A DNA stretch of 64,000 bases. It comes from a virus. Shown piece by piece: positions 3,025 to 56,800 of this stretch; the stretch's first letter is position 1, and every line of letters begins with the position of its first letter. Below the pieces are notes generated by a model that saw only the letters and a program-made list of their open reading frames with translations, did not search any database and was not told the DNA's origin. The stretch covers positions 1 through 64,000 of the IMG/VR virus record IMGVR_UViG_3300044530_000662; one strand, given 5' to 3'. The position numbers and the translations under genes are program-made.

Positions 3025-3702
3025 ATGGCTTTAAGCACAAAAGATTTGAACGGAGGGGGACTTCCTAAAACAATTTCTCCAGGAAATCATAGATTAAGAA
3101 TTAACAGTTTAGAATTAGAAGATTTTTCTTTCATTCCAGGTGCAATGCACTTACTGTTACATACTGAAACAGAACCAATTGAAGGTTTTGACGGGTTTAT
3201 GATTGATAAAGATGATGCAAGCAAAGGTCACTATGCTGGTCAAATTGGTAAAGTAAAAGCAAGCCAGTATGCTTATGCAGATGGTGAAACTAAAAGTGGT
3301 ATTAAGATTGAAAGAGATAAATCCTTGATGATCTTCTTAAAAACTTTATGTAATGGTTTAAATATATCTAAATGGTTTGATGAGCAAGATGATTTGCATG
3401 AGACTATTGAAGATTTTGTTATTGCTTTTAACAAGACAGCTCCATTTAAAAATGTTTATTTAGATTTCTGTATTGCTGGCAAAGAATATGTTGGTAAAAC
3501 TGGTTATACAAACTATGATTTGTATTTACCAAAAGCAGAGAAAGGTAATTATGCATTTGGAGATTTCAAACAAGGAAAAGTAATGCTTTATAATGAAGCA
3601 GTGCATTTGAAAAAGACAGAAGTAAAAGAAGTTAAAAATTTTGGAGATGATGATGATTTATCAATTCCATCTAAAACTTCAACTGATTTCAGCTTAGACT
3701 AA
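3025..3702 (+). CDS. Probable single-stranded DNA-binding protein
   Basis: No clear OB-fold signature can be proven by eye. The protein does have a beta-rich N-terminal two-thirds followed by a linker and a strongly acidic tail (FGDDDDLSIPSK then TDFSLD at the very end), the layout of phage SSBs whose acidic tail recruits replication partners. It directly follows the Sak4-like ATPase and closes this operon segment before a strong terminator. Genes in this position in crAss-like phages are commonly SSB-like. Alternative: another DNA-binding recombination mediator. Confidence 0.55.
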   Translation: MALSTKDLNGGGLPKTISPGNHRLRINSLELEDFSFIPGAMHLLLHTETEPIEGFDGFMIDKDDASKGHYAGQIGKVKASQYAYADGETKSGIKIERDKSLMIFLKTLCNGLNISKWFDEQDDLHETIEDFVIAFNKTAPFKNVYLDFCIAGKEYVGKTGYTNYDLYLPKAEKGNYAFGDFKQGKVMLYNEAVHLKKTEVKEVKNFGDDDDLSIPSKTSTDFSLD

Positions 3703-3713
3703 TTAAATTAGTC

Positions 3714-3750
3714 AAAGGGAGTCAGATATTACTTTTGGCTCCCTTTTATA
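3714..3750 (+). terminator. Rho-independent-type terminator after the SSB-like gene
   Basis: The arms AAAGGGAGTCA (3714-3724) and TGGCTCCCTTT (3736-3746) pair over 11 positions with one G-T wobble and are followed by a T-rich run. Only 19 bases separate the hairpin from the next start codon at 3766. Confidence 0.8.
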
Positions 3751-3765
3751 TTTTAATTAAGTTTT

Positions 3766-4746
3766 ATGATTTCAACAAAAGGAATAATATCTGATATAAA
3801 AGATGTACCTGAAGAATGGGTATATGAGTATTATTTAAACTTGAAAGAAAAACTTACAGGTCAAGATATTAAAATGCTTTCTGCATTTAATTCAAAAGAC
3901 AAAGTTCCTTCAATGTTTGTTTACTTTGATACTACATCCAGTACATATAAGTTTAAAGATTTTTCATCAGGCAACCAAGGTAACTGTTGGAACTTAGTTC
4001 AGCATTTATATAATTTATCTTTTGGTGAAGCTGCTGCAAAAATCATAAATGATTATCAAGTATATATAAAAAATAATACTGTATCTGAAAAAAGAGAACT
4101 AGTAATTCATGATAAGTTTAAAGTTGTAGACTATGAAATGAGACACTGGAATACTTTAGATCAGAAGTATTGGATGATGTTTAAGATAGGCTCAGGATTA
4201 CTGGATAGATATAATGTAGTTCCTTTAGAATTTTTTACAATGGAAAAAGAAGAGATAGACAGTACTATGACTTCATTTACTTTTAAAAGACCTTATATGT
4301 ATGGTTATTTTAGAAATGATGGTAGTTTATATAAAATCTATATGCCTAAGAATACAGATAAAAAATTCATAAAGGTTGAAAATTATATTCAGGGTACTGA
4401 ACAGCTTAAATATGATTGCAAGTATCTGATTATTACATCTTCTCTTAAAGATTTAATGTGTTTTAATAAGCTTGGTATTAATAATGTTGAAGCTATTGCT
4501 CCGGACAGTGAGAATACTATGATTGGAGAAAAAGCTATTGGAGAATTTCAGCAATATTATCAAAAAATAATTGTTTTATTTGACAATGATGAGCCGGGGA
4601 TTAAAGCAGCAGAAAGATATAAAGTAAAATATGGTTTGAATTATATAATTCTACCTATGGAAAAAGATCTTTCTGATTCAGTTAAAATGCATGGTATAGA
4701 TAAAGTTAGAGAAGTATTATTTCCGTTATTAAAACAAACATTATGA
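3766..4746 (+). CDS. DnaG-like primase with TOPRIM domain
   Basis: This protein would make RNA primers for phage DNA synthesis. The N-terminal part (VPSMFVYFDTTSSTYKFKDF, then GNCWNLVQ) resembles the CHC2 region of DnaG-type primases but has lost the zinc-binding cysteines. The TOPRIM domain shows LFDNDEPGIKAA (Asp273 and Asp275) followed by DLSDSV. At the usual catalytic-Glu position the sequence is ITSSLKDLMC, so the Glu is replaced, as I recall for other crAss-like primases. At 326 residues it has no helicase domain, which is a separate gene here. Its stop overlaps the next small ORF by 4 bases. Confidence 0.8.
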   Translation: MISTKGIISDIKDVPEEWVYEYYLNLKEKLTGQDIKMLSAFNSKDKVPSMFVYFDTTSSTYKFKDFSSGNQGNCWNLVQHLYNLSFGEAAAKIINDYQVYIKNNTVSEKRELVIHDKFKVVDYEMRHWNTLDQKYWMMFKIGSGLLDRYNVVPLEFFTMEKEEIDSTMTSFTFKRPYMYGYFRNDGSLYKIYMPKNTDKKFIKVENYIQGTEQLKYDCKYLIITSSLKDLMCFNKLGINNVEAIAPDSENTMIGEKAIGEFQQYYQKIIVLFDNDEPGIKAAERYKVKYGLNYIILPMEKDLSDSVKMHGIDKVREVLFPLLKQTL

Positions 4747-21700: not shown

Positions 21701-22238
21701 TTCTTTCTACGGGTTTCCCAAAATATTCTACAGCATCTGTTTTAGAAATCTCATCTAATATAGAGTAGTTATTAGCAAAGTCATTTATGTTTACTAGACC
21801 TTCTAAAAACTCTTTATTATCAATCTTACCTTCCTGAAAATCAGTCATTAAGCTTTTAAAATATTTCTTAGCAGAAAGAGCTTTCTCAAATGAATCTTCT
21901 ATGAATATATTAATAGAATCAACACCATCTAACTCATTAACCATTTTAGTTAATCTAGCTAGTTGAGCCTCTTGTTCTTTTTGGTTCTTAAGTTTTTTTC
22001 TGCTGAGAGCATATTTCTTTTCTTCCAAAAATATTTTTACTTTTTGTAAGGCTTCACCAAAATTAGTAGGAGCTTCATCAGGAGTAATGTTTAAATCATC
22101 TTGAAGTATATCTTCAAACTCTTCATCTTCTTTTACTAGTCTGTTCCATTCTTCTAGGGCACGTTCTTCATTACCATTTTCTTGAGCAAGAATTCTTCTC
22201 CATTCATCACTACTTTTATTGGGACAACTTCCTAACAT
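18741..22238 (-). CDS. Large virion-module protein after the RNA polymerase, 1165 residues
   Basis: This is the last gene of the late minus-strand unit. Its ATG overlaps the polymerase polyprotein stop by 7 bases, so it is translationally coupled. The first 380 residues are charged and coiled-coil-like (many Lys/Glu helices); the middle is mixed. A predicted membrane segment (VVAELTIIAALGALIMALTY, near residues 1027-1047) lies near the C-terminus, followed by a tail rich in aromatic residues. Proteins in this place in crAss-like phages are large, packaged and poorly understood. A membrane-inserting, DNA- or protein-delivery role is plausible from the helix but not shown. No catalytic motif is visible. 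Confidence 0.75.
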   Translation of the reverse strand: MLGSCPNKSSDEWRRILAQENGNEERALEEWNRLVKEDEEFEDILQDDLNITPDEAPTNFGEALQKVKIFLEEKKYALSRKKLKNQKEQEAQLARLTKMVNELDGVDSINIFIEDSFEKALSAKKYFKSLMTDFQEGKIDNKEFLEGLVNINDFANNYSILDEISKTDAVEYFGKPVERKSLAEYTPQDKLTTALEIRNFIRTAYINQVTPLLAEVLVAQRNTRNIGSITEQIKTYQDRIQKIKTSTLSDKAKAIDIAAAQRELTKWQNMLLDKERMENILKMSLKDEGVFDYLLNPLISSEDSALALFAKMVKSQFEESRIDDIAERNEGVDKLKEFKAKSGRSINNVAEFNEGLFEEISVVRRDFKGKAIKEKGAVVIDKKMSFVQKFDLNLYGEAERQFYKDNPKPTLSTEASPEEVSLYDKQLKDWGKKRRQWYKQNRQPKSTEEILKIKNEKKAELDKGIITAEEYQEWLTKVESVDTKTGAKTFYGILSEPAEKYLSKKWLKLYDKEGNPISPEGEYHKYLTDKYLKDQELLPESQRMGYILPSIPMEDYERMYRKGVGNFVKTNLKDAVAIQSYDQSLYGTNLSKEGDDIDTRPYGRASLSGEKMTMLPVYYTQPMNADDVSVDLLKSVLQFGAMARKYNAMNEIHAEITAFRSIIGERETAVTTASGESILNIAAKKLGFDDYIRSNATPYSKMHLEAFLEMVVQGESQKAEKILGLELSKIVNTAMGISAVTTISMDVLKGAANNIQGNIQVAIEAAGGEYFNGKNLAKGAAKYWSTVGGALSDFGQLKPESWLGRLTEYYDPIQGTFKDEYGKNVSASVANKLFRINTLFFNQNFAEHEIQVKTMLALMDATKVIDRATGTEMTLLEAHEKYGPVLYEMTTDETGKKVKEYKVQIDVTNSEGVVERKDFDEKQRQDFMNTLHALNKKMHGVYNDFDKGVLQRHAGGRLLLMYRKHLYQGIKRRFKGVSFDEELGGATEGMYRVFWRTLIKDTYRYKTDIMKQWSTYSPFEKAQIRKVVAELTIIAALGALIMALTYMGTGDDGEEKEDLPYAYYFMMYQAIRMRSETFSYLSPADFWRIAKSPSAITGTIDRFVKFFDQFLFTWDEEKLTYQKDTGVWNKGDNKSWAYFLKLMGFSGYTFAPEEAVKSFKSTFVK

Positions 22239-25200
22239 AACTTATCAAGTATTTTTGTTATTTTATTATAATCTTCTTGTGTTTTAGCTTCTGCTAAATT
22301 ATTGATTATATCATTGATATCATAACCTTTAGTAGCTAATTGTTCTTCTATGTTAGTAGTAGCTCTTAAAGTGATAAGTCTATCAAGAGCTTTAGCTATA
22401 ACTTCAGGATCTACAGGTGAATCAAGACCTGGTTCAGTTTCCTGCTTACCTGTCTCCATATTAATATTTCTCACATATATTTCACCCGTTGTTCTATCTA
22501 CAAGATCATAGTTACCAAACTTGTTAAGCTTATACATTCTTATACCCTCTGTACCACTACTAAAATCTTTTGGTTGTACACCGCTCATTTCATGTACTAA
22601 CCAGGCATATACTTTCATGTCATACTCTATACTATCTATTGGAGCTGGACTTACTGGTGCTTTAGTAGGTTGAGTAGATGGTAACAAATCAGAAAGATAT
22701 CTATCTGTAACTATTACTTTGTTACTAGGAATTTTAGATACTGCATCTTCAATTTGTTTTTTCCATGTTACTGTATCATACTTAGCACCTCTTTCAGATA
22801 TTCTTTTTTGGAACTCTTCATTAGTAAGATTGATAACTTTATCAAAAACATCTGCATTATTTTTTAACAGATTAGTATTGGATGTAAATAGAATTTTATT
22901 TTCAGATAGAGCAACTGCCTTAACTTTATCAAAAAGATTTTGCATCATTTTATTATACTCAGTATTCCATTGTTGATCACCTCCATCTTTAACCTGATAT
23001 GTTGTTACATTATATTTATCAGCTATTTCTTTTACTTTAGTGTTTATTTCACTAGCATAATCATCATCTAGAGAAATGAATCTGTTGTCTTGATTTTTCT
23101 TTAAGAAACTTTTACCAATAGTTGGATGTCCCCAGATAATTTTATCTGTAGGTTCTATTTTAACTATAGCAGGTTGAGTAGATGGTTGAGAAGGAGCTTT
23201 AAATGTATTTTCATACACATCTCTAATAGCTTGTTTACCTGCTTCATTAATTTCTCTAGTGCCTATACCTGCAAATTTAGTTGTAAGTGTAGGGACATCA
23301 GATATACGGAATTTACCATCTTCCCAAGCAAACCATTTTTCATATGTTTGGTCAAACACATAAACTGGTTTTCCAAGATTGATAGCCATTTGTACAGCAT
23401 AACCTGTACCACCATCTACTGAATCTGTCTTAGATTTAACAGCATATCCTTTTTTGTTTTTATCCCCTGGAGTAAGAACATTTCCAATTGCAAACACGGC
23501 ATCTGCAGCTTTAGCTTGTAAATAATCTCTCCTTACTAAACCACCATTATAATAAATAGATTTACCATCTACTTTTTTATTTGGGTCATTCCAATCATAA
23601 GGTAAAGGATTTCTACCTAAATCTTTTACAGCTTTTTGATAAGCTGTTTCTACTTCTTGTACTTGATCTTGTGATAATTTTTGTAATGTTTGTGGTGTAT
23701 AATCAACTTGTTTACCTAATCCGTATTCTTTACCTACTTCTGCCCATACTGTATCTCCGCCTGTTGCAGCACCTGAATAATTAGTGTATCCTGATGCAAC
23801 ACCTGTAGGAGCTGGTGTAGGTGTAGTAGTTTCAGTAACAATTGATGGAGCTTGAGGCATACCTGCTGTTAAAGGCATAACTCTTCTCATAGTAATAGTT
23901 ATCCTATAAGAACCTTCAGGATATGTTTTACCATCAATCTTAGTTGTTAACTCTGGTAAAAAACTATCTTGAGGAGTAGGAAATGTTCTATGCCATACTT
24001 CTCTATTAATACCATCTACTCCAAATATATATCCTGAACCTGCTTCAAGATTTAACATAGCATTTTCTGGACCTAATCTTTCTATAGAAAAATTACCTTT
24101 ACCACCAATGTTAATTCCAATAACTGGATACTTAATAGCTGATTTACTTTCATCTACGTCATTATGAGAAGAGATAAATGTATCTTTTTCATAAAGATTT
24201 ATAATAGCACCATCATAGTTAGTCATATCTACTCCTGTAGCTTTCTGCATAAGCTCTCTAAATCTAGGTGTAATTTGTCCAAGAGATTGACCATTAACTG
24301 ATTGATTATAATAACCATACTTAGGATTTCTTTTTATTGGGTCGGGAATATTAACAGATGCTCTTCCAGGATTATTATTTGTATAATCCCATCTTAAACC
24401 AAGACCAATCATTTTACTACCTTCTGAAGATTTAAGACTTTTATTAGCTTGTTCTTCTAAATAAGGTTTAAGATAATTAAATAACTCAAGTTGTTCTTCT
24501 TTAGTAAGAGCTCCTTGATTTACATAAATACCTTCTTTAACTTGTTGACCTTTTGGTTTATTAGACTGACTTACAGGACCTGTAGATTTTTGTTCACCTT
24601 CAACTTTAGGAGCTACGTACATACCTGTTGAAAGGTTAGCATTTTCATAGTATACTTCTCCAGACTCTTGGTCTATCATGTCATAGTTGTCATATTTGTT
24701 TTTAATCCATATAGCTGATTGAGGCATACCAGATCTTTTACCAGTAGATGTATTATAAAATGCAGGGAATAAAGTTTTAGATGTAAAGAATCTTTCTGGT
24801 CTTTTACCTCCTGATTTTTTTACATAAGCATTAAATAAATCTACATCTTCCTGATTTATTAATCTTACTAAAACTTGATCTTCTCCTTCATCATCATCAA
24901 AGGTTTCTAATGTACCATCATTAGCTGGTTTAGATGCTTCTAATGTAGCTAATTCAGTATGTATGTATCCTTTTGGAGAAACAAGATAGTTTTTAAACTT
25001 ATCCATACTTACTACTGTATTGAATATACTATCAAGTGTTTCTTTATTTAGATAATTTGCAGTAAATGCTTTAGAAGCATTTGATATAATATTCTTATAC
25101 TTAATAGGATCCAATGCTTTAACAAAACCTAATCTTGTTTTACCAATACCGTTTTGATAGAACATAGCTAATGAGAATAAATCAAACATCTCTGATATTC

Positions 25201-28200
25201 TTTTATTATCACTTGCATTCTCTTCTGCAGTTTTATTTTTATTCTGAACTTTAGTAATACTTGGGTCAGATAAATTTCTAAGGTTGTTATAATAAACTGA
25301 TGCTAGTTCTCCCTGTGCTTCTTTCTGATTATTTAATGTTAGAACTTTAGCTCCATCTGTATTTGTACCAGGTGTTAATTGAGCTGTGATAGGATAATTA
25401 ATTTTAAGTGTGTCACCAAACTCATTAATTAAATTTAACAAAGAGTCAGAATAACTATACTTGGTTTTACCCATAATATATTTATTGTTATAACTACCTG
25501 CTAATGCTCTTTCTGATATGTAACTTTCATATGCATCACTAGCATTACCCATATTAACAACTCTTTTTAAGAAGTCACTATTATCTTCAAGAGACTCAAT
25601 TGGATTATTTACTCTGATTGATTCTCTAGCAATAACATATCTATAGTAACTTGCTAATGTTTGGAATGGATCATCTTTAAGTTTAAATGTATCCAAGCCT
25701 CTAGCTCCATAGTTATTTTCTGATGTACTTGATTCTAAATATGCTTTGTTTGCATAGTCAGTTTCAATTCTAAGAGTGTTGATTGCAATACCTTCTTCAA
25801 ATACTCCGGCATCTGTATCTAAATCATCTACAATTAACACAGGTCTATTATCTGTGTATGTATCAGGGATGTTTACTAACTCACCTTTCTCATTTGCAAA
25901 GTTAGATGTATAGTTTTGTAAGATAAAGTTTATTACTCCATTGTTAAACAAAGTACTAAATCTTTCTTGTCCATTTATACCTTTACCAAATGTTGGATTA
26001 TTTCTAATCTGAGATGCTTTAGACTGATCAACAAATGCATCACTGATGTATTTAGTAATTTCAGGATTAAGTCTTAAGTTAAACAAAGGCTCTGTTAAAT
26101 CTTTAATTAATTGATCTTGATTAAATGAAGATAAGACAGACTTATTAATTAATTTTTCTAAGAATTCTTGGTCAATTGATTTACTTTTTCTTAAAGCATC
26201 ATAAGCTTCCATTCTTTTAATTACCTGCTGTACTGTGGTAAGCTTACCAGTATCTGGAGAGAATGTTTGTTGTAAATCATTCATACCTTTAAACTGTCTT
26301 TCCAATTCAAGATAGTTCATAAACAATGTAAGAGCTTTCATTGTCTTATCATCCTTTACACCATCTTTTAGAGTTGTTGTAGAAACATCTCCTTTTGGTA
26401 AAAATTCTTTTGATAATACTTCAGTAGTAAATGCAAAGTTCTCTACACTGTTTATTAAAGTACTATAAGAATAGACTGTGGAGTCTTGGTTTAAACTAGG
26501 ATCCCATGATATTCTTTCAATATTTTGAGCAGCTAGTCCACCATTATTTAACTTTTTAATTAAATCTTCTAAGGTTGTTTCTGTAACACCAGAAACTTTT
26601 TTTACTTTATAATAGTACTTAGTATCTTCACCTTTAGCTTTTAAGTCATTAAGAACATATCTTAGTTTAGCAACATTGATTCTGTCATAGATAATATCTA
26701 AACTATCTTTGCTAAAATTTTTAAGTACTTTATTTATAATATTATTTGCTACACCACCTTTTTCTTGTCCACCAACTATTTTAGAATAAGCGCTTTCTTT
26801 TAATTTTTGTTTTTCAAAGTACTCAGCAATAAGAGGTTGATTTAAGAAAAAGAATATTTGTTCTTCATCAACACCAGCCTGAAGCATGTAACTAAATACA
26901 TCCATTGCTTCTGGAACTAGCTTTAATTCAAAAGGGAATGATTCTTTTGCTCTATCTAAAATACCTTGTAAAGCATGAGATGATACATCTGATATACGGG
27001 AACCTCTTTGAGTTCTCTCACCAGATAATGATATAACTTCTTTACCTTTAGCATTCTTAATTTTATTATGAGTAAATCTCATAACTACTGGTAATTCATA
27101 ACCTGTCTCTACAGTTTTATTTAATGCTTCAATGAAAGAAGAAGCTTTATATGTAGCAGGCATCTTAGCTCCTACAGATTTATATATAGGATGACTCTTA
27201 GTTAACTTAGCCATTATACCTAATGAAGCTTCTAGAGATAAGTTAGCATCATGTTTATACAAATTGTATGTAGCCTCTAATACTCTTGTAGGACTAATTA
27301 CAGTTTTTCTTTTACCGTTTTCATCAGCAGCAGAAAGCTTAGGTGCTTGACCATGAGTATTAGTATATCTGTTGTAACCTTTCTTGTTTTCTTCTAACTC
27401 AGGTACATATTTATCTACTAAGTATGTTCCGTTAGGTTTGGTTAAATATGCATAGTTCTCTGGTAACATTAAAATTTCTACAGCAGCATTTTTAAATCTA
27501 TTCTGTAAATATTTTTTCTGTTCAGCAAGCAAAGCTCTTGAAGAAGGTCTTCCTTTTATAGACTTATTAGCTTTTTCAAGTGCTTGAGTTTCTTTAAGAA
27601 GAGATTCAAATTTATCTACTCCTTTAGAAATAACCTTACCATCTCTATCTAAATTAGGAAAAGTCATAAATAACTTATCACCATCAAAGTCAGATCCAGC
27701 TTTAGCAACTATTTCTGTTGGTACAATAATACTATTACCAAATGCTTCAGGTAAGAAATGCCATACTGTTGCTGCTTCAATTGTATTAGTTGCATCATTA
27801 GGAATTCTTGGACCAAACATAGTAACAGCATCCTTATTGTCTTTTAACCATTTAGGATCTTTAATTACCTCATTAAGTCTATCAATAGTAGAGATTTTTT
27901 CTCCATCTGTATGCTTACCATTTAAGAGTTTAACAAACTCACCTTGTAAAGCAACAGCAACTTTCATCTCAGTACTTCTACCATTCTCATTATATCCATA
28001 AAAAGGAAGAGTATTTGTACCTAACCATTCTTTAATTTCTTTTGGATTAGTTAGAGTACTGTATTGAGAATCCCAAATACCATTAGTAAATGTACTTGGT
28101 GTTTGAACTAAAGGTTCCCCATTAGTTTTTTGTTTGATTAACCCATTCTGTAAAAAGCTCATGATAAGCTTTTCAACAGTGTCAGCTTCTGGATGTAATG

Positions 28201-31200
28201 ATAAATCCATTGCTAATTGATTATCATTATCAGTATTAAGAAGTCTGATTAAATGATCCGGAGTATCTCTGTTTTTTAATTCATCTCTGATAACTTCTAT
28301 AAACTGTGTTAAGTTACCTATGTATCTACCATCAACAAGTTCAAAACCAATTTCACTTAATAACTCTTCTTTTAATATTTCTGAGTAATCTTTTACTGCA
28401 GACAAATACTCATCAAGAACTGGCTTATTTTTTTCATTAATAAGACCTCCTTCTGAGTAAAGGTTGTCAAGTAAGATACCTCTAGTTTGTGTAGCTATAG
28501 GAAGAGAACCTTTAAAGTGCTCATTGATAACAGTTACTTCTTTTAAGTTGGCCATGTAAATAGGATTAACTGTAAAAGCAGTATCCTCTTTAATAGCTTT
28601 CTCATCTTTATTAGCAAAAATATTATCTATTTTACCATTAGTTGTTAGGTTAGCTCCTTTAGAACATGAGTCAAATGCTACATACTGAATGTTTTCTCTT
28701 AACATTTTCTTATGTAATGTATCTAACTCGGAACCTTCTTGTGCATTAACCCCTGGTATTAATGGTATAACAGCAAACTTATGCATTGCTCTTACTGGTA
28801 AGAGATTGTTTTCTAGTGCACCAAAGTAATGTAATTTATATACAGGAAAATAATCTTTTACTGTCTTAGGACTTATCTTTTCTCCTTTGATAATTCTTTG
28901 ATAAAGATTTTCTTGAGCAAGTGTCCAACCTCTTCCTGTTTTGTGCAATGTTCTATAGGCATCAAAAGTCATATAAGCCATACCATCACCTTCTTTCATT
29001 CCCATAAATGGCTTAATGTCTTTTTTAATAAGCTCATCTATAGTTTTAGAATCATAGGTTCCGGCATATTCTTTTTTCCATGCTTTAACCATATCATCTA
29101 AGTATAATGAATCTCTTACAGCATCTTTTATGACAGCTGTATTTAAAGTTTCACCATACATGAATTTATTCTCTTCAGATATTTCTGGCATGTTTAAGCT
29201 AGCATAGGTAACGTTATTGTAGTTAGTATTTATGAAATCTGAAATACCTTCATCAAAATTAAACCCAACACCATCTGAAGTTGAACCTGGAATACGCTTA
29301 GTCCAATCTTCTTTATCATGACCCCATTGTGCATGATCACCATACACAAGCATTGATGTCTCATACTTGTGAATAAAGTCATTGTATAAATAAGCTTTTA
29401 GTATCTTTTCAGTTAATGTCTTATCTTTCTTTAAATTATTAAGTGTATTGTTATCTAAACTTTCAGCTTTGTATCCCAGTTTTTCAAAAATAGACTTAGA
29501 CAAGAATGGCATTTTTTGGAAATACAGATTGTCTATTTCACCAGTTTTCTCATTAAAGTAGTCTATGATATCATCAGTTATCATTTTTCTTAATGGCTTA
29601 CCTCTTAAATAGTCTATCAAAGGAACATCTACTTGTTCATCAGCTAATTTATAAAGTTCATCTTTAGTTTCTTGTCTTAATACAGAATCAAAAGCTGAGA
29701 ATATTGAACCAGCAGGTACATCATTACCATTACCATCATTAACTAATTTGTTATATCCAGTAACTTTTAAATACTCTTCTTTGTTTGCTCCTCTGAATTT
29801 TTTAATTCTATCAAATTCACCCTGGATATATGGGAAAAAGTTATTACCAATAGCATAGATTTCACCTTCACTTCTTCCTTTAGAATCAGTTGTCATGAAC
29901 TTATCCATGTCTACATAAAGGTTTTTATCATCACCTTTTTTATAAAAACCTACTGAACTTCCTTCTACACCTCCTATAACTTTAATACCATAGGAGAATT
30001 TTTTCTCTGAGTGTCTTGGGAATTCAGCTACACCACCTAAAAGCATAGTATGTAACTCTTGTAAGAACTTAGACTGTGGGTCTAGTTCAGTAGTAGTATT
30101 ACCTTCTGCTTCTTCTACTTCTACATCTCTTCCATTTTTCTTTATTGTTTTTTTATTAGACATAGATGTACCATCTACAGCCATTAATAAAACACTTTTA
30201 CCTTCTATTTTTTTACCGTCTGCACCAAATAAACTTTTTATTATGTTTAATTGAAGTGTGTGAGGATTAATAGCAGGATTTAGATAAGACATATAACTAA
30301 ATCTTGGGTCTGTCCAAAGCTGATTCATTTCATCAACTTCATTTAATGCATATACATATGATGCTGCAGAACTCCAATTCATCTCTTGGTATCCAGTATT
30401 TCCATTTGCACGGATAACACCAGTAGTTGCAGAATCAAAACCATATTTAGATTGTAATTCAGCAAGTCTCTTTAACTGTGTAAGCTCTTTTACGGAACCT
30501 TTAAGATTAGACAGTACACCAACAGGAACAATATTTTTAAGAACATCAATTGGATTTTTCTTAAACATATCAAGATACTTGACTTTATCAGCTGTTAATG
30601 CTGGGTCACCTTCTTTTAGATTGTTAATTTCATTGAAGCCTTTAACAATATCAAATATATAAGGCAAACCATAATAATCAAAATTAGCTACAAGTTCCTT
30701 TTTAATATTATCATTGTTATCTAAATCAATAGCCATTGCTCTAGCAAAGTCTAATGCATCTTTTTCAGCTAGTTCTCCTTTAGTACTAAAGTCTTTTACT
30801 AGATTAGCTAAGTTTAATGTGGATACATTATCTTTAGACTTATTAATGTATGAGTTAGCTTGGGTGCTTTTAAATAAAGCCATCCACCTATTTAGAGTGT
30901 TGTCAATAGCAATAGAAGATTCTTTAACTCTGAAATCTATAGTTCTACTATCAGCATCATTGAATGCAAATAACTGCATGTACTTAACTCTAAATTTACC
31001 AAAGTCTTGCCAGAATCTTAAACTAACATCTATCTCATGTGTGTTTTTGATATTGCTTGGGTCCGGATATTTCTTTTCATATAATTGTTTAAGTTCAGGA
31101 AACTTCTCAGCTTCTTGTCCTAATTTTTCATATGCTTTGTATCTGTCTCTTTCTCCACCAATAGTTTTAGCTAGAATAGTAAATACTTTAGCAAAGTCTG

Positions 31201-34200
31201 CTCTTTCTTTAATACCAAATCTATCTGTTGGTGTAGTACCATCAGGATTAACTTTAAACAAACTTTTGATAAGATAATTAGTTTCTTTACTCATCATTTG
31301 CTGTAAAGACAATGTTCCTGTCTTAGGTTCAAATGCACCTGTGTCAGATTCAGTTTCATCTACAACATCACCATCCTGGTCAATCTCTTGTTTTGATTGG
31401 TTCTGTACTTCTATGTCAAATTTGTCTTTACCAATTTCATAGTCAGTATTTTCCATATGGTATTTTATAATACCATGTTTTTCATCACCCCAGTTAGCTA
31501 TTGTGTTTTGTAGAATTCTTATGTTATCTCTAACTAATTGTTGTTTCTCATCAACAAGAATATTCTTAGCATCTTTATTTTGTATAAGTTCAGTATATAC
31601 ATCAGCTTTACCTACTTTATAGTTCTCAAACTGTAATGGAGCATCTTCTAATTTAGATATGATAACAATATCAACAGGTCTTTCATCTTTAGTAATTTCT
31701 TTATGCTTGTAGAAATCACCAAGTATTTTAATACTGTCTTTATAGTCTTCTCCTCTTACTCTTTCACCACGTTTTAAAGATGGGTTTAGTTTACTAAAGT
31801 CATCTACCTGAGATGCTAAGAAGAAGTACTTGTCTTCTCCTTTTTTATTCTTCATTACAGCTACTGCATTATCAGAAATTTCTTTTAATGTAGTATATGT
31901 ATTAAAGTCTTTTTGACCTTCAACTTTTTCTAACTTATCTTTTTCTTGTTTAAGTATTTCTTGAAGTCTATTTTTTGTTTCACCATATAACCAAGTTCTT
32001 TTAGCTGGTTCAGTAAGCATTAATACACTTGCTGACTTAAGACCTTTTGTATGTAATTTTTTTTCAATATACTCAGGAGTTACTTTGTCTCCTGCTTTAA
32101 GACCTTCTTCAGCAATTTGTTTTCTTGTTTCAACAACTCTAGTATCATAGATATCATCAATTATTTCAGCCCAGATACCATCTATAGTATTAACCATTTG
32201 ACTACTATCTTGAGGACTTAAGGCATCTTCTTTTGTATTAACTACTTGTCTTGCTCCTCTATCTAATTCATATAACAAAGCATTATCAATACTAGCTTGG
32301 TAGCTGTTAAATCTACCAAGATATAAATTATCAAATAGCTCTTTAGCCATTGGAGAATTCATACTATCTATCTGAATATTTTGTTTCTTAAATTTATTAA
32401 GGTATTTGCCAAATAGTTGTTTTAAGAAGTTTAATATTCTTCTGAATATAGTATTTCTTTTTGGAGCATTTTGTTTTGCTTTACCAGTCTTAACATAATT
32501 TCTAAAGTCTTCAGCTAACATTTCTTCAAGTTGTCTAAAACTTTTATTAGCATGCGGTTGATTACCTTTAGCATCAGTATAATTCTGAAGTTCCGTGTAT
32601 AGCTCAATCTTTTGTTCCTTAGTTAAAAACAACTGAGAGAAAACATGCCACGCTTCATGGTATGCTGTAAGATTTTGGTAAAATGAACCGTTAGCCTTAT
32701 TCACTTTAATAGAACCCATTTTCTCATTTGTATCAGCTAAGACTGCACCGTTAACTATAAATGTGGCAAACACATCTGAGTTAACAATATTAGCTACATG
32801 CTCTAATGATATAAGGTCTCTTAAAGGTTTAAGCTCTTTACTGTTCCACCACTTTTTAGCTTGAAGTATTTTAACAGGATTTATAAAATCTTTACTATAA
32901 CCTTTTCTGTCAAATGAACCTGGTATAGAGTTTAAGTCTATCTTACCATTTGATTTAAATATCTCACTAACTGCAGAATTAGTACTTTCAGGAGCAGGTG
33001 CTTCAGGTTCAGTTAAGATTTGTACTATTTCTTCTTTCTTACTTTTAGGTGAAGGATTATGGTCTTTTGCATATGCTATTCTATCATAATACTCATCCTC
33101 TCTTTTTTGTGCTAGTCTTTCAGCTAAACTTCCCGCTGCATCTAATCTATTGTCATCATTACGGGATAAAGATAATTCTCTTTGTATACTAGCTGCATCA
33201 GATAAATCTATGTCACTTCTTCTTTCAATTGAAGGTGAGTCACCTTTTTTAATTATTTGACCTAGTGTACTTTCTGGCGTGGTGTAACTAACTGAATAGT
33301 TATAAAAACCAGGGTCTGCATTTATTATTTTTACTTCAATAGGAAGAGTACTTAAAAACTCAGTGTATGATTTATCAATAAATCTTGTACCATCTTCAGA
33401 TAATCTTTGATATGTTTTACCAAGCTTATCACTATCATATGACATGAACACAGCATTAGTCTGACCTTCTTTATTGTTTCTGTAACCACCATTCATTAAA
33501 ACATTAACAATTCTTTCTTTAATGCTTTTAATTTGTTCTGCTGATAGTTTTTTTAAATTAGTATCAGTTAATAAGTCTCCTTTTTCATTTACCGGATTCT
33601 TAAATTTAAAGTCTTTGTACTCATTAAAATATAAATACTTAAGGTCTTTATCAAAATTAAACTTATATTTTTTAGTAGTGCCTTCAGTATCTAATGAAGC
33701 TGGTAAGAATTGATCAACAAAAACTTTTTTAGCAGCTAATGGGATATTAGCATTAGTTAAAACTGAAGCTACTTCATCAGCAACATCTTTTGTAATTCTT
33801 GGTCTATCTAATGCAAACTTACTACCATTAATTATTATTGATGCTTCACCCTTTCTTAGTGTAGCTGTAGCTCTTGGAGCTGTCCTAATAGTTCTATATA
33901 CATCAGTAGTAATACCGGGAAATTTAGTAAGCTCATTCAAAAGAATATTTGTTGAACTTAAATTAGAAGGTACACCTGTAGTAATACCTGTAACTGGTAA
34001 TAGTTCTGCTTCATTCTTTAATGCTTTTTGTTGTAAGTCATACAACTCTTTCATTTGCTTTTGTTGCTCTGCTACAACTAAATCAAAGTATTCTCTCTTT
34101 GTTCCATCTATTTCTGGATTGTAAGTCATTTTTGCAAACTCTTCTGGAGAAAGAACTTGGTCTTCTTTATTATAGATATCTTTTACTGTATACTTACTTC

Positions 34201-35137
34201 CGTCTTTTCTTACAGTTCTCATGAACTGGTATACTAACTTTCCTTTTTCACTATCAGTTAACTTACCTTCATTATCTACATAGATATTACTACCAAATTC
34301 ATCAGTAAGAATAAGAATTACTCTTTGATCAACTTGTGCAATGTTTGGATTTACATTTTCTTTTTTGGTCTTTCCTGTTTTTATATTATCTCTTATAGTT
34401 CTAGAAGCAGCTATTTCAGTTCTAGTTTCTTTATCAAGCATGTCTAGGTTTTTACCTCTAGCAAAAAGATCTAAATTTTCAGCACGGAACATTAACTTTT
34501 TACCTTCATAAATAACACCATCAGTAGTATCACTCATGGCTTGTATTTGTTTTATGTTTTCAAAAGTCTTTATGATAGCAGCTTTTTCTGGATTAATTTC
34601 TTCAATTACTATAGAACCATCAGATTTCTTATTAGGATTAATCTTAATGTAGTTTTGAAGGGTGCCTCCCCAAGGACTTAGTGTTTTAAATCTATTTGAT
34701 TCAATAACAGTTACTGGTTCTTCAGGTATTGGAATTTGATTAAGCTGTAACTTATTAGCTTCATTAGCTTCATTTTCAATTTTATTTGGTACAGGATCTG
34801 GTTTTACTGAGTATTTATCAATTACAGCTTTGATACCTTCATCTGATTTAAACTGAGCATTTAATTTTCTAAGAGATTTTTCATCTAGAGCCCCAACAAA
34901 ATCAAGATTTAGTAAAGCTTTTTTGTTAGACAAATTAGAAACAATAGCAGGAATCTGTTGAACAAATTTAGCTGCAGTATCAGTATCTTCTTTACTTGAA
35001 ATTTTATTAAACAAATCTTTCATGAAAGCATCAGCATCAAACTCAGTACCTGAGTCTAGTGCATCTTTCATTCTTTTATAAGTTAGTTTAAATAATTTTG
35101 CAATCTGGTCATCAGACAAGGCACATGTTATACTCAT
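22232..35137 (-). CDS. Giant virion RNA polymerase polyprotein, 4301 residues
   Basis: The protein is a crAss-type two-barrel RNA polymerase, probably packaged in the head and injected to transcribe early genes. The catalytic loop is GSDFDGDKLF (Asp at 2483, 2485 and 2487), preceded by FGPRIPND and LPEAFGNSIIVP, typical of the crAss/phi14:2 polymerase. Other domains in order: a zincin-like site HEAWH (827-831) with Glu/Asp-rich helix after it; the polymerase core (about 1700-2800); an AlkB-like 2OG-Fe(II) dioxygenase (His3658, Asp3660, His3716, then YRITITMRR); a SLOG-like Rossmann domain (about 3785-3955); a P-loop GHPTIGKS (4003-4010). A 27-residue module is present at 3480 and again at 4205. 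Known crAss polymerases are roughly half as long. Confidence 0.88.
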   Translation of the reverse strand: MSITCALSDDQIAKLFKLTYKRMKDALDSGTEFDADAFMKDLFNKISSKEDTDTAAKFVQQIPAIVSNLSNKKALLNLDFVGALDEKSLRKLNAQFKSDEGIKAVIDKYSVKPDPVPNKIENEANEANKLQLNQIPIPEEPVTVIESNRFKTLSPWGGTLQNYIKINPNKKSDGSIVIEEINPEKAAIIKTFENIKQIQAMSDTTDGVIYEGKKLMFRAENLDLFARGKNLDMLDKETRTEIAASRTIRDNIKTGKTKKENVNPNIAQVDQRVILILTDEFGSNIYVDNEGKLTDSEKGKLVYQFMRTVRKDGSKYTVKDIYNKEDQVLSPEEFAKMTYNPEIDGTKREYFDLVVAEQQKQMKELYDLQQKALKNEAELLPVTGITTGVPSNLSSTNILLNELTKFPGITTDVYRTIRTAPRATATLRKGEASIIINGSKFALDRPRITKDVADEVASVLTNANIPLAAKKVFVDQFLPASLDTEGTTKKYKFNFDKDLKYLYFNEYKDFKFKNPVNEKGDLLTDTNLKKLSAEQIKSIKERIVNVLMNGGYRNNKEGQTNAVFMSYDSDKLGKTYQRLSEDGTRFIDKSYTEFLSTLPIEVKIINADPGFYNYSVSYTTPESTLGQIIKKGDSPSIERRSDIDLSDAASIQRELSLSRNDDNRLDAAGSLAERLAQKREDEYYDRIAYAKDHNPSPKSKKEEIVQILTEPEAPAPESTNSAVSEIFKSNGKIDLNSIPGSFDRKGYSKDFINPVKILQAKKWWNSKELKPLRDLISLEHVANIVNSDVFATFIVNGAVLADTNEKMGSIKVNKANGSFYQNLTAYHEAWHVFSQLFLTKEQKIELYTELQNYTDAKGNQPHANKSFRQLEEMLAEDFRNYVKTGKAKQNAPKRNTIFRRILNFLKQLFGKYLNKFKKQNIQIDSMNSPMAKELFDNLYLGRFNSYQASIDNALLYELDRGARQVVNTKEDALSPQDSSQMVNTIDGIWAEIIDDIYDTRVVETRKQIAEEGLKAGDKVTPEYIEKKLHTKGLKSASVLMLTEPAKRTWLYGETKNRLQEILKQEKDKLEKVEGQKDFNTYTTLKEISDNAVAVMKNKKGEDKYFFLASQVDDFSKLNPSLKRGERVRGEDYKDSIKILGDFYKHKEITKDERPVDIVIISKLEDAPLQFENYKVGKADVYTELIQNKDAKNILVDEKQQLVRDNIRILQNTIANWGDEKHGIIKYHMENTDYEIGKDKFDIEVQNQSKQEIDQDGDVVDETESDTGAFEPKTGTLSLQQMMSKETNYLIKSLFKVNPDGTTPTDRFGIKERADFAKVFTILAKTIGGERDRYKAYEKLGQEAEKFPELKQLYEKKYPDPSNIKNTHEIDVSLRFWQDFGKFRVKYMQLFAFNDADSRTIDFRVKESSIAIDNTLNRWMALFKSTQANSYINKSKDNVSTLNLANLVKDFSTKGELAEKDALDFARAMAIDLDNNDNIKKELVANFDYYGLPYIFDIVKGFNEINNLKEGDPALTADKVKYLDMFKKNPIDVLKNIVPVGVLSNLKGSVKELTQLKRLAELQSKYGFDSATTGVIRANGNTGYQEMNWSSAASYVYALNEVDEMNQLWTDPRFSYMSYLNPAINPHTLQLNIIKSLFGADGKKIEGKSVLLMAVDGTSMSNKKTIKKNGRDVEVEEAEGNTTTELDPQSKFLQELHTMLLGGVAEFPRHSEKKFSYGIKVIGGVEGSSVGFYKKGDDKNLYVDMDKFMTTDSKGRSEGEIYAIGNNFFPYIQGEFDRIKKFRGANKEEYLKVTGYNKLVNDGNGNDVPAGSIFSAFDSVLRQETKDELYKLADEQVDVPLIDYLRGKPLRKMITDDIIDYFNEKTGEIDNLYFQKMPFLSKSIFEKLGYKAESLDNNTLNNLKKDKTLTEKILKAYLYNDFIHKYETSMLVYGDHAQWGHDKEDWTKRIPGSTSDGVGFNFDEGISDFINTNYNNVTYASLNMPEISEENKFMYGETLNTAVIKDAVRDSLYLDDMVKAWKKEYAGTYDSKTIDELIKKDIKPFMGMKEGDGMAYMTFDAYRTLHKTGRGWTLAQENLYQRIIKGEKISPKTVKDYFPVYKLHYFGALENNLLPVRAMHKFAVIPLIPGVNAQEGSELDTLHKKMLRENIQYVAFDSCSKGANLTTNGKIDNIFANKDEKAIKEDTAFTVNPIYMANLKEVTVINEHFKGSLPIATQTRGILLDNLYSEGGLINEKNKPVLDEYLSAVKDYSEILKEELLSEIGFELVDGRYIGNLTQFIEVIRDELKNRDTPDHLIRLLNTDNDNQLAMDLSLHPEADTVEKLIMSFLQNGLIKQKTNGEPLVQTPSTFTNGIWDSQYSTLTNPKEIKEWLGTNTLPFYGYNENGRSTEMKVAVALQGEFVKLLNGKHTDGEKISTIDRLNEVIKDPKWLKDNKDAVTMFGPRIPNDATNTIEAATVWHFLPEAFGNSIIVPTEIVAKAGSDFDGDKLFMTFPNLDRDGKVISKGVDKFESLLKETQALEKANKSIKGRPSSRALLAEQKKYLQNRFKNAAVEILMLPENYAYLTKPNGTYLVDKYVPELEENKKGYNRYTNTHGQAPKLSAADENGKRKTVISPTRVLEATYNLYKHDANLSLEASLGIMAKLTKSHPIYKSVGAKMPATYKASSFIEALNKTVETGYELPVVMRFTHNKIKNAKGKEVISLSGERTQRGSRISDVSSHALQGILDRAKESFPFELKLVPEAMDVFSYMLQAGVDEEQIFFFLNQPLIAEYFEKQKLKESAYSKIVGGQEKGGVANNIINKVLKNFSKDSLDIIYDRINVAKLRYVLNDLKAKGEDTKYYYKVKKVSGVTETTLEDLIKKLNNGGLAAQNIERISWDPSLNQDSTVYSYSTLINSVENFAFTTEVLSKEFLPKGDVSTTTLKDGVKDDKTMKALTLFMNYLELERQFKGMNDLQQTFSPDTGKLTTVQQVIKRMEAYDALRKSKSIDQEFLEKLINKSVLSSFNQDQLIKDLTEPLFNLRLNPEITKYISDAFVDQSKASQIRNNPTFGKGINGQERFSTLFNNGVINFILQNYTSNFANEKGELVNIPDTYTDNRPVLIVDDLDTDAGVFEEGIAINTLRIETDYANKAYLESSTSENNYGARGLDTFKLKDDPFQTLASYYRYVIARESIRVNNPIESLEDNSDFLKRVVNMGNASDAYESYISERALAGSYNNKYIMGKTKYSYSDSLLNLINEFGDTLKINYPITAQLTPGTNTDGAKVLTLNNQKEAQGELASVYYNNLRNLSDPSITKVQNKNKTAEENASDNKRISEMFDLFSLAMFYQNGIGKTRLGFVKALDPIKYKNIISNASKAFTANYLNKETLDSIFNTVVSMDKFKNYLVSPKGYIHTELATLEASKPANDGTLETFDDDEGEDQVLVRLINQEDVDLFNAYVKKSGGKRPERFFTSKTLFPAFYNTSTGKRSGMPQSAIWIKNKYDNYDMIDQESGEVYYENANLSTGMYVAPKVEGEQKSTGPVSQSNKPKGQQVKEGIYVNQGALTKEEQLELFNYLKPYLEEQANKSLKSSEGSKMIGLGLRWDYTNNNPGRASVNIPDPIKRNPKYGYYNQSVNGQSLGQITPRFRELMQKATGVDMTNYDGAIINLYEKDTFISSHNDVDESKSAIKYPVIGINIGGKGNFSIERLGPENAMLNLEAGSGYIFGVDGINREVWHRTFPTPQDSFLPELTTKIDGKTYPEGSYRITITMRRVMPLTAGMPQAPSIVTETTTPTPAPTGVASGYTNYSGAATGGDTVWAEVGKEYGLGKQVDYTPQTLQKLSQDQVQEVETAYQKAVKDLGRNPLPYDWNDPNKKVDGKSIYYNGGLVRRDYLQAKAADAVFAIGNVLTPGDKNKKGYAVKSKTDSVDGGTGYAVQMAINLGKPVYVFDQTYEKWFAWEDGKFRISDVPTLTTKFAGIGTREINEAGKQAIRDVYENTFKAPSQPSTQPAIVKIEPTDKIIWGHPTIGKSFLKKNQDNRFISLDDDYASEINTKVKEIADKYNVTTYQVKDGGDQQWNTEYNKMMQNLFDKVKAVALSENKILFTSNTNLLKNNADVFDKVINLTNEEFQKRISERGAKYDTVTWKKQIEDAVSKIPSNKVIVTDRYLSDLLPSTQPTKAPVSPAPIDSIEYDMKVYAWLVHEMSGVQPKDFSSGTEGIRMYKLNKFGNYDLVDRTTGEIYVRNINMETGKQETEPGLDSPVDPEVIAKALDRLITLRATTNIEEQLATKGYDINDIINNLAEAKTQEDYNKITKILDKLC

Positions 35138-53892: not shown

Positions 53893-56800
53893 TACCTTGG
53901 AGAGTATTGATTTTTACTATCTACTGTTTTTAATATCATATTGACATTACCAGATATTTCTTTTCTTAAAGATAAGAAATGTGTATAGTGTCTAAACTTC
54001 TTTCTTTGAAGTTGAGCTTTATTATAGTCTATATTTACTAAGTTAAGTTCTCTTGTGTAACCATCAGGTTTACTATTCCAAATTAACTGTTGTACATAGT
54101 TACCTAATAATACAGTTGTGTTAGGTACAAGAGGTCCTTGTGGAGGATAACCGGCACCAACTGGAAACTCACCTCTATTGTTTGTTACATCCCAGAATTG
54201 ATTAAACCTGTATTTGTTTTCTTCTTTAGAAAATAATATATCAAATCCAGGAACACCAGTAACACTAGGTAATCCAGTAACAGGATTAGTAAATATCATT
54301 GGTATTGAAGGATTAAACTTAGGATAGTTTAAACTCAATACTATATTGTTCTTAGGGAATATATTTAAGTTTAAGTATCCGGAAACTTGTTCTGAATTAT
54401 AAATTACAGCATTGTCAAAGTTAAAGTCTAATACATGAAACTGGTCAACACAATTACTAGCTCTTGTATAACATTCTAGTATATACTCAAATGATTTTAC
54501 AACAGTAGGAGTTTGCCCAGTAATAATAGGGAACTCAATTTCAAATGGATAATTAACACCATAGTAGTTACAGTACTGTTGACAATTAAAATTATGTTTC
54601 CATATAGTCTCCATCTTAGTAGTTAAGAATACTGTTTTAGTTGGTATAACTAAATCTGGATGCCAGTCATGATATGATATCCAAAATTCATTTTTTGGAT
54701 CATAACTTATTGTCCATGAAGCACTGTCAAATAGTTTTGGATCTCCAATTAAATAACGTCCAGCACCATCTAATGTAAAGTAATCTCCTGTTCCTTTTTG
54801 TACAGCTGCTCCATTTGAATTAACATAACACTCTTTTACAAAAGGAATATATTCTACTCTATCAGCTAGTTCTGGTTTAACATCATAATCTTTTTTACAG
54901 AAATACAATATAGAGTTTTCATTATCATATACTGCTTGGATGCCAATACCTGCTACTGGATTATCTTGCCATTCATAATTTGGAAAATGTTGTGTTAATT
55001 TATATTTTAAAAATAATGAGAACCACCATTTTAAACCTATCTGAGATATCTCTTTTAAACCTTCACCATAACTAAATATTTTACCTTGGTTTTGTGACAC
55101 ATAAAAAAGTCCAGCAGGTGTAGACACAACAGATAATCTATTTTGAGAAGAACCATACTCATATGGTTTATCTGCATTAGATACAGATTGTCCAGGTTGA
55201 CTAAATAAACCTCCGTCACCTATAGTAATCTTAGTTCCAAGAGCTGTATTAAGTGTATCAACACCTTGAAACATTTGAGGCATATCATTTTTAAACGTGA
55301 TAAATAAACCACTTTTATTAATAGATTTTACACCAGAGATTTGAGACTTAAATTCTCTATAGTTATTTGCTAAATATACAAACCAACTATCTTTAAATGA
55401 TTGATCTTGTTGTGGTAATGAATAGTATATTGTGTCTGGTAAGTATGTGTAACAAAGTTTAGCTACAGCAGGATTATAATAAGGACTCTGTAAGGCACCA
55501 GAAGAAAAGTATTCTGTAAACAGTTTACTTATACTTAATGAGTAATCATATCTGTATGTATTACCTCTAGTAATGTTTTGAGGATCAATATCAAACATTC
55601 TTGTTAACTCTGTATAGTTATATGGGTTATAATGTTTTTCCCATTCATAATCACCAGCAATTCTAAAATCTACAAGTACATCTGATTCTACAAAGAAATC
55701 TCTTACAGAAGAACATGCTAAATAAAAGTTAGCATTTTTTGCTCTAAACAAACCTGGGTAACCACCAATAGGAAAGTCACTTGAATAACTATAATACCTT
55801 GATGAGTTTTTATAATAATCTAAATTATAGAAACTGGTTGGTAAATCTCCTGTTCCTGGAGTTGTATTACCATTTGCAAAATCTGGAGCTAAATCTGATA
55901 CATCATAATCTTTTGAATTCATCCAGAATCTTGGTTGCGGAATCATTTGACGCAATAAGTAATTAAACTCAAATCCATCAGGTTGACCAAATAACCAGTC
56001 ATAGAAAAAGAACATACTATTCTTTTCTGTATATCTATTTACAAAAGTATCACCTCCAAAAAATACAGGTGATTGTCTTATTCTTTTGATTTTTGTATCT
56101 ACATTACAAGCAGCACATTTTGTACTTGCACCTGGTGTATCTTCTAATTGTCCTAAACTAAACTTCTGTTCACATGGAGTAATTACAATTTGTTTAACTC
56201 CTTGCAATTGACCATATTGATTTCCAAGTCTAATTTTCATACCAGCATAATGACTGGCAATAGGTGCTTGAAAAGGTGTATCAGTTTTTGTAAATGTTGG
56301 GATGTCTAAACTTGACCCAGTAATATTAGCTAAGGTGTCAGTTTTAATAATTCCATTTTGATTTAATCTACCTAGTGTTGTTAATGATTGATCTACATAA
56401 CTTACACCAGTTGGTTCAGTAATATAATTAGGACCAATAACATTATTATATAAAGGACCTGCATAGTTAGGACCAGCCTTTGTTCTTATTACAACTGTAT
56501 CAGATCTATTAAGGTTGTTTATACTATAGCTTGTGAGAGCATTATTATATTTATAATATGAAGGAACTTGTTGTATGTTACCTCTAATGTAAAAGCTATC
56601 TTCTATTTTAAATCTAAATAATCCATTAGCTGCATTGTTGCGTCTCATATCATCATAGAAACCATGAGCAATCATTTGTAATGCAAATTGATCTTCAGGT
56701 ATAAAAGCTTTTATTAAAGTTAATGTTGTTCTAGCACCTTCACTAAAATAAAATAATAATTGATTAGTTGCACCAAGTGCTCTACTAAAAGGATCTAAAT

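Follow-up and report, generated by a model that had tools for sequence, protein, structure and literature searches.

A circularly permuted SLOG domain among the exchangeable cargo of a predicted crAss-like virion RNA polymerase

The stretch of DNA analysed here (the window, 64 kb out of a 117,285-base IMG/VR virus record) encodes an ORF of 4301 residues. In its C-terminal part an earlier note, made from the letters alone, had read a SLOG/YpsA-like domain of an injected protein with a possible anti-defence role. This raises the question of which protein carries the domain, whether the fold is correct and what the domain may do there. The ORF contains all five motifs quoted by the note, each of them in frame and in the order given, and the note's interval (23270-23800, residues 3780-3960) was correct to within a few codons. 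The features are collected in Table 1.

Table 1. Features of the window, contents of the cargo slots and related cellular loci (window positions unless another locus is named)
Feature	Residues (aa)	Position	Strand	Basis
ORF of 4301 aa, predicted crAss-like virion RNA polymerase with C-terminal cargo slot, polyvalent protein		22232..35137	(-)	tblastn of aa 2100-2700
HEAWH, zincin metallopeptidase-like HExxH	827-831	32645..32659	(-)	motif scan, motif level only
RNA polymerase core	2231-2560	27458..28447	(-)	motif and tblastn
DFDGDK of the core	2483-2488	27674-27691	(-)	motif and tblastn
Left slot boundary	3427-3511	24605..24859	(-)	paralogous to C-terminal segment; alignments to all relatives break at aa 3505-3511
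Cargo module 1, AlkB-family 2OG-Fe(II) dioxygenase	3521-3765	23843..24577	(-)	Pfam PF13532
Cargo module 2, predicted circularly permuted SLOG domain	3784-3982	23192..23788	(-)	motifs, AF2 model, structure and profile matches
NYSGAATGGDTVW	3786-3798	23744-23782	(-)	in frame
AADAVFAIGN	3877-3886	23480-23509	(-)	in frame
GGTGYAVQMAI	3909-3919	23381-23413	(-)	in frame
KPVYVFD	3923-3929	23351-23371	(-)	in frame
FAGIGTRE	3955-3962	23252-23275	(-)	in frame
Linker repeat CCATCTACTCAACC, codes PSTQP, before P-loop module		23172..23185	(-)	
Cargo module 3, P-loop NTPase/kinase-like	3991-4160	22658..23167	(-)	Walker A GHPTIGKS
Linker repeat CCATCTACTCAACC, codes PSTQP, after P-loop module		22668..22681	(-)	
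Right boundary, conserved C-terminal segment	4169-4301	22235..22633	(-)	47-87% identical in relatives
Slot, window: AlkB, permuted SLOG, P-loop				
Slot, L102: permuted SLOG, DUF4326-like, ART-like				
Slot, L103: unnamed module, P-loop, unnamed module, AlkB, ART-like				
Slot, L104: permuted SLOG and two unnamed modules				
Slot, L106: second 2OG dioxygenase (6e-8) and unnamed module				
Slot, L108: ART (weak), permuted SLOG, AlkB				
Slot, L110: A1S_2505, NADAR (6e-16), unnamed module, ART-PolyVal (3e-11)				
Slot, L112: A1S_2505, permuted SLOG, unnamed module, ART-like				
Slot, L113: 2OG-like, DUF4326-like, ordinary SLOG				
Slot, L116: unnamed module, ordinary SLOG, unnamed module				
Flavobacteriia permuted SLOG and WYL loci		L121 5971-7726; L122 1589-3097; also L123, L124, L125, L127, L128		

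The identity of the ORF was tested with the region of aa 2100-2700. By tblastn it matched 79 phage records, which, where classified, were essentially all crassviruses and in many cases annotated as RNA polymerase; crAss002 was among the best matches and Cellulophaga phage records were also listed. The crassvirus proteins annotated as RNAP, including crAss002, were matched at E 1e-10 to 1e-3. The motif scan found the HEAWH position fixed in every relative covering that region, where family models gave no match. The DFDGDK motif, the crassvirus RNAP matches and the HEAWH at its fixed place therefore identify the ORF, by its sequence, as a crAss-like virion RNA polymerase. A phmmer comparison of the RNAP core with PDB sequences, a sequence search only, in which the phi14:2 RNAP structure was sought, returned nothing relevant. 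As in polyvalent proteins, one ORF joins the RNAP core, the AlkB, SLOG and P-loop modules and the HEAWH zincin motif.

Mass spectrometry of crAss001 virions detected the RNAP-associated proteins gp47, gp49 and gp50, for which ejection into the host has been proposed (PMC10172136). Purely by homology, that of the crAss-like RNAP core and that to these crAss001 proteins, the window polymerase is probably injected as well, which supports this part of the earlier reading. Two side observations were made on the large ORFs. At window 32990-33235 (aa 635-715 of the 4301-residue ORF) the alignments to the distant relatives L108-L115 have a second break, possibly marking another variable segment. An ORF of 1841 aa (53892-59417, minus strand) gave matches at 8e-39 and 6e-29 to two PHROGs that comprise virion structural proteins, and the remaining large ORFs tested between 18741 and 53892 gave no informative match.

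The fold of the SLOG domain was modelled with AlphaFold2 on 45 aligned relatives (pLDDT 95.5, pTM 0.92). The domain has the Rossmannoid alpha/beta fold and the glycine-rich motifs SGGAxGxD and GGT of the SLOG superfamily, and the one deviation of the window copy is SGAA in place of SGGA. In the fold search, which the earlier note had proposed as a check, the best solved structure was 3imk (Z 11.1 over 128 residues, 17% structural sequence identity; next row Z 5.6). This structure was found by the VIA second look only, the best Foldseek match of the model in the PDB having an E of 0.37. It is labelled as a putative molybdenum carrier and we take it to belong to the cpYpsA family. Neither the domain sequence nor its profile gave more than chance matches among PDB sequences. 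The window domain had no match in NCBIfam and none over the cut-off of any family model. The Pfam matches among 45 members were all weak, with cpYpsA in 11, Nuc_deoxyrib_tr in 10, DprA in 5 and LDcluster4 in 4. For cpYpsA (PF12694) the best E was 0.0022, and the copy of Klebsiella phage Pylas scored 16.4 bits, under the gathering cut-off of 26.2 bits. PF12694 did not match the window domain at E 0.1, and a search for it across the virus record of the window gave no match anywhere, not even for the controls, and therefore carries no information. PADLOC weakly matched ShosA, a protein of the SLOG/DprA kind, to the window domain (0.0048) and to the Pylas copy (3e-5), which we took as superfamily resemblance.

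In the AlphaFold2 model FAGIGTRE forms a strand (175-180 in domain numbering) followed by the last helix. An ordinary SLOG has this strand at its N-terminus, whereas here it lies at the C-terminus; the domain therefore appears circularly permuted. The near relatives L113 and L116 have an ordinary-order SLOG in the same slot, with YAGIGSR followed by RSGAAEGAD and then GGTGQAVEMA. To compare the two orders, the family profile was cut at FAGIGTRE and rejoined. The permuted profile matched the SLOG of L116 in one collinear piece with 41.4 bits, whereas the native profile matched it in part only with 31.4 bits. On ordinary SLOG the permuted profile reached E 7e-12 versus 0.2 for the best shuffled decoy, and the decoys scored at most 8 bits. 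An assembly or frame artefact was ruled out for the permuted order, which is common to tens of independent contigs, cultured phages and standalone genes. The SLOG/YpsA-like fold was thus borne out by the model, the 3imk match and the permuted profile, and can be sharpened: the domain is predicted to be a complete circularly permuted SLOG, related to Pfam cpYpsA but outside that family. Because the matches lie below cut-off and the structural sequence identity is 17%, we regard it as a separate phage family.

The sequence comparisons place SLOG as one of three modules in a variable C-terminal cargo slot of the polymerase. Residues 1-3511 are collinear with L103 and L104 at 82% and residues 2161-3511 with L102 at 85%, and the polymerases of L108-L116 align unbroken up to the slot at lower identity. 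The alignments stop at aa 3505-3511 and resume at about aa 4154-4169 in the conserved C-terminus. The stretch between is 433-921 aa long and has a different content in each of 10 distinct genomes, the cargo types seen being AlkB, permuted SLOG, ordinary SLOG, macro-fold, NADAR, ART-PolyVal, DUF4326-like and P-loop. Named families were assigned by model match, and the other modules by sequence similarity or by eye. The AlkB module of the window matched PF13532 at E 1e-11, above cut-off, and TIGR00568 (alkb) at 6e-7, under cut-off; its HND, distal H and RxxxxxR are recognisable. The P-loop module had no family model over cut-off, and a 92% identical copy is found in L103 at a different position. 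Pfam gave no match for the by-eye 'NADAR_a' and 'ASCH-like' modules, for the first module of L103 or for the ART-like module of L102, and NADAR_b of L085 reached E 0.033 only, versus 6e-16 for the L110 copy. A module of about 127 aa (IEAGFRTRTTRS...VGDTIKHFG...AIEFEVI) was observed in the slots of L103, L104 and L116; it is PUA/ASCH-like by eye, had no Pfam match and is 93-94% identical between polymerases that are 60% identical.

Exchange of the modules was followed by pairwise identities. Between L018 and L102 the SLOG domains are 94% identical in amino acids and the polymerases 47%, whereas between L102 and L104 the polymerases are 93% identical and the SLOG domains, at the same place in the slot, 50%. 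The AlkB, A1S_2505 and DUF4326-like modules show the same pattern against their polymerases. At the nucleotide level a match of 92% between L017 and L018 spans the SLOG module and ends in the linkers, as do the matches of AlkB (L018/L103) and P-loop (window/L103). The two copies of CCATCTACTCAACC that flank the P-loop module of the window are exact, and junction DNA is held in common, for example ACTCAACCATCTACTCAACCTACTGAA, coding for TQPSTQPTE. In the slots, 20.3 kb in total, the linker octamer ACTCAACC was counted 22 times, and in the other 94.7 kb of the ten ORFs not once; the p-value of this enrichment is not to be taken literally because the ten ORFs are related. That isolate genomes show the same pattern lessens the worry that assembly chimeras lie behind the slot variation. 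These identities indicate that modules are swapped between phages with junctions in repeated TQPSTQP-type linkers, and recombination at the linkers would be the natural reading.

A second slot was found in N4-like polymerases. The enzyme of Pylas has an insert of the SLOG family of about 190 aa within a T/P/E/Q-rich linker, and the insert is absent in MY01, of the same genus, and in Salmonella phage SP-058, where the flanks are highly similar. The vRNAP of Shigella phage B2 (L138) has a different domain of roughly 110-130 aa at this site, again between highly similar flanks. The N4 polymerase is T7-like and no kin of the crassvirus enzyme (PMC5512222). The same SLOG family is thus optional cargo of two virion polymerases that are unrelated to each other, the N4-like and the crAss-like.

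The presence or absence of SLOG is free among close relatives, which implies a polymerase function independent of it and would suit a structural or neutral cargo, a folded spacer that is swapped by illegitimate recombination and has no role of its own in infection. The dN/dS of the SLOG module is, however, 0.17-0.32, i.e. purifying selection, and the pocket-motif residues are kept, with G10, D16, R91, Q95, G130-G131-T132, G178, G180 and R182 (domain numbering) invariant in 50/50 fused copies. Since the domain is under purifying selection and these residues are unchanged, it is not mere filler. The family was also recruited by two unrelated polymerases and kept as standalone genes, and we consider a neutral cargo very unlikely.

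The family is widespread. By tblastn it was found in 43 annotated phage records with a best E of 5e-37, 41 of which cover at least 80% of the domain, and because of these matches the observation is not due to chance. In IMG/VR 197 relatives were detected and 80 kept, of which 45 lie in ORFs of more than 400 aa, 29 are standalone and 6 belong to two-domain proteins. The fused hosts comprise the vRNAP of Pylas and the RNA polymerase of an Alteromonas schitovirus, and the giant proteins of the crassviruses cr109, cr113 and cr130 contain a member. In L003, L004, L016, L021, L022, L052 and L056 the giant ORF is open only with TAG read as an amino acid. Standalone copies of about 180-210 aa occur in jumbo phages and megaphages; in L009, L011, L014, L015 and other jumbo phages they are annotated as DprA-like (phrog_768).

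A DprA-like DNA binder would protect entering single-stranded or damaged phage DNA or aid recombination, with the AlkB of the slot repairing alkylated bases. PHROG 768 ('DprA-like DNA recombination-mediator protein') indeed matched at E 3e-6, but over 30 residues around GGTG only. The DprA structure 4ljk was found with a Z of 5.4, far below 3imk, which we assigned to cpYpsA. DNA_processg_A matched 5/45 members, weakly and at best with 0.0023, and DprA has the ordinary strand order whereas the SLOG domain is permuted. Some standalone copies adjoin recombination nuclease genes (Cr30), yet SLOG is for the most part fused to macro, NADAR, ART and DUF4326-like domains. We therefore regard a DprA-like role as unlikely, and by fold and permutation the DprA-like name of the standalone jumbo-phage copies looks misleading.

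The partners of the domain were then considered for its function. In 6/6 two-domain proteins SLOG is joined to an A1S_2505 domain. The model of this domain (pLDDT 85.7) has a macro fold with a Foldseek probability of 1.0, and TARG1, DarG and ADP-ribose-bound viral macro domains were among its best rows (Z 9.5-10.8). The domain, present at L080 5569-6000 and in other copies, is listed by NCBIfam as 'A1S_2505 family phage non-structural protein', and its macro-domain model reaches a Z of about 10.8. In Flavobacteriia, cellular homologues sit immediately upstream of a WYL-domain regulator, identified by Pfam at five loci (L121-L124 and L128) and by close sequence similarity of the neighbour at L125 and L127; an alpha/beta hydrolase (UPF0227) is often upstream or fused at these loci. 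SLOG and WYL regulator are possibly a host nucleotide-signalling pair. The macro fusions, the slot-mates and the WYL neighbours point to signals of the NAD/ADP-ribose kind.

Whether the domain could rather hydrolyse nucleotides was judged from the LOG motif. The window copy reads GGTGYAVQ and lacks the PGGxGTxxE with catalytic Glu of LOG phosphoribohydrolases, where we assume the register by motif only. The position of the Glu is Gln in 43/50 fused copies (Glu 3/50, Ala 4/50) and in 34/39 standalone copies, and Glu in 5/89 overall. An N-glycosidase or deoxyribosyltransferase-like enzyme would hydrolyse or exchange bases on free nucleotides or modified nucleic acid, for salvage or de-modification instead of signal blocking. 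Nuc_deoxyrib_tr (PF05014) matched 10/45 members with a best E of 6e-5, and nucleoside 2-deoxyribosyltransferase and CMP N-glycosidase structures were found with a Z of about 4.3-4.4, but a Z of 4.3 is inside the tool's stated noise range. AlkB and the P-loop kinase-like module adjoin SLOG in the window, and the Arg in RNxxQ together with GGxGxxxQ/E mirrors the motif layout of LOG enzymes. Given that Gln mostly takes the place of the LOG catalytic Glu, putative binding or sensing is favoured over LOG-type hydrolysis, and we regard a glycosidase as rather unlikely.

The best-supported putative function is to counter NAD/ADP-ribose defence signals, because of the macro fusions, the slot-mates, the conserved pocket-motif residues and the prediction that phage SLOG domains in general act against cADPR-type immune signals (Iyer et al. 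2022, PMC9503650). The anti-defence role suggested by the earlier note is therefore plausible. Against this reading, the homologues are often DprA-like in PHROGs, Nuc_deoxyrib_tr is the best single Pfam match among members (6e-5), so that a nucleobase or DNA role keeps some probability, and the standalone jumbo-phage copies lie near DNA-metabolism genes. On balance we find it somewhat probable that the swappable cpYpsA-like SLOG cargo of an injected crAss-like vRNAP blunts signalling derived from NAD/ADP-ribose. In such a mechanism the polymerase, as its homologues suggest, would be packed in the phage head and injected ahead of the DNA. Entering first, it would bring its cargo into the cytoplasm ahead of all phage gene expression, and the polymerase's own zincin domain may set the cargo free. 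SLOG would bind a NAD- or ADP-ribose-derived nucleotide, which some members may cleave, and so blunt host signalling or toxicity that acts via such molecules. The macro-fold, NADAR, ART, DUF4326-like and AlkB slot-mates would act on related signals or adducts. More tentatively, with the odds a little against it, crAss-like and N4-like vRNAPs may be delivery vehicles with a cassette slot, in which repeated linker DNA swaps pre-folded counter-immune domains and the permuted SLOG, arriving with the virion, would soak up or sense an NAD-derived signal before phage expression, a pre-emptive evasion of Thoeris-like defence.

The anti-Thoeris proteins known so far are produced once infection has begun and have to race against the host signal; a counter-signal domain inside an injected polymerase would, if this reading is true, win that race. 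The swappable slot is also a ready list of candidate counter-signal domains, several of which carry no functional assignment, such as the macro-fold A1S_2505 module, and helps to explain why the virion polymerases of phages abundant in gut and water can be so large. Pylas versus MY01 and SP-058 are natural pairs with and without the domain in cultured N4-like phages, so the idea is directly testable.

How does the domain compare with known systems? In Thoeris, the SLOG pocket of the SIR2-SLOG effector ThsA binds 3'cADPR (PMC11204291). ThsA belongs to the same superfamily as a distant relative only: its SLOG is not permuted and is fused to SIR2, whereas the phage SLOG, known here from sequence and model, is permuted. 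The window SLOG had no specific ThsA match, and ThsA was absent among the structural matches listed. The Tad1/Tad2 sponges and the RyDEP glycosidase (PMC13232231) remove cADPR-type signals, the outcome proposed for the phage SLOG. Their activity is demonstrated and that of the phage SLOG inferred; their folds are, as far as known, unrelated to SLOG, and they are made after infection and not virion-delivered. With cpYpsA (PF12694, 3imk) the domain shares the fold and the permuted strand order, PF12694 being the most frequent Pfam match (11/45), but all matches are under the Pfam cut-off and the structural sequence identity is 17%.

The phage SLOGs of the NAD-ADPr network (PMC9503650) are likewise of the YpsA clade and linked with Macro, NADAR and DUF4326. 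That survey describes viral SLOGs as typically standalone, whereas here they travel as cassettes within vRNAP cargo, and do so in no fewer than two phage groups that are unrelated. Polyvalent proteins, which include N4-like vRNAPs fused to zincin, ART, lysozyme or PBECR domains (Iyer et al. 2017, PMC5512222), are similarly giant, multidomain and thought to be injected with the DNA, and join a virion RNA polymerase and a zincin motif to host-directed domains, and ART-PolyVal is also present in the slots of window-phage relatives. Unlike the T7-like N4 type, the window polymerase is crAss-like (DFDGD), and the slots carry SLOG, AlkB, macro-fold, NADAR and DUF4326-like modules. When the text of PMC5512222 was searched, no terms for SLOG, NADAR, AlkB, linkers or shuffling turned up. 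In the papers searched we found no description of a slot in crAss-like polymerases, of ADP-ribose-type cargo in it or of exchange bounded by linkers, a scope that leaves aside Fig. 3 of Yutin et al. 2021 (PMC7886860) on domains in the crassvirus transcription block. In conclusion, polyvalent proteins (PMC5512222) and phage SLOG domains (PMC9503650) were known already, and the larger result here is the exchangeable slot.
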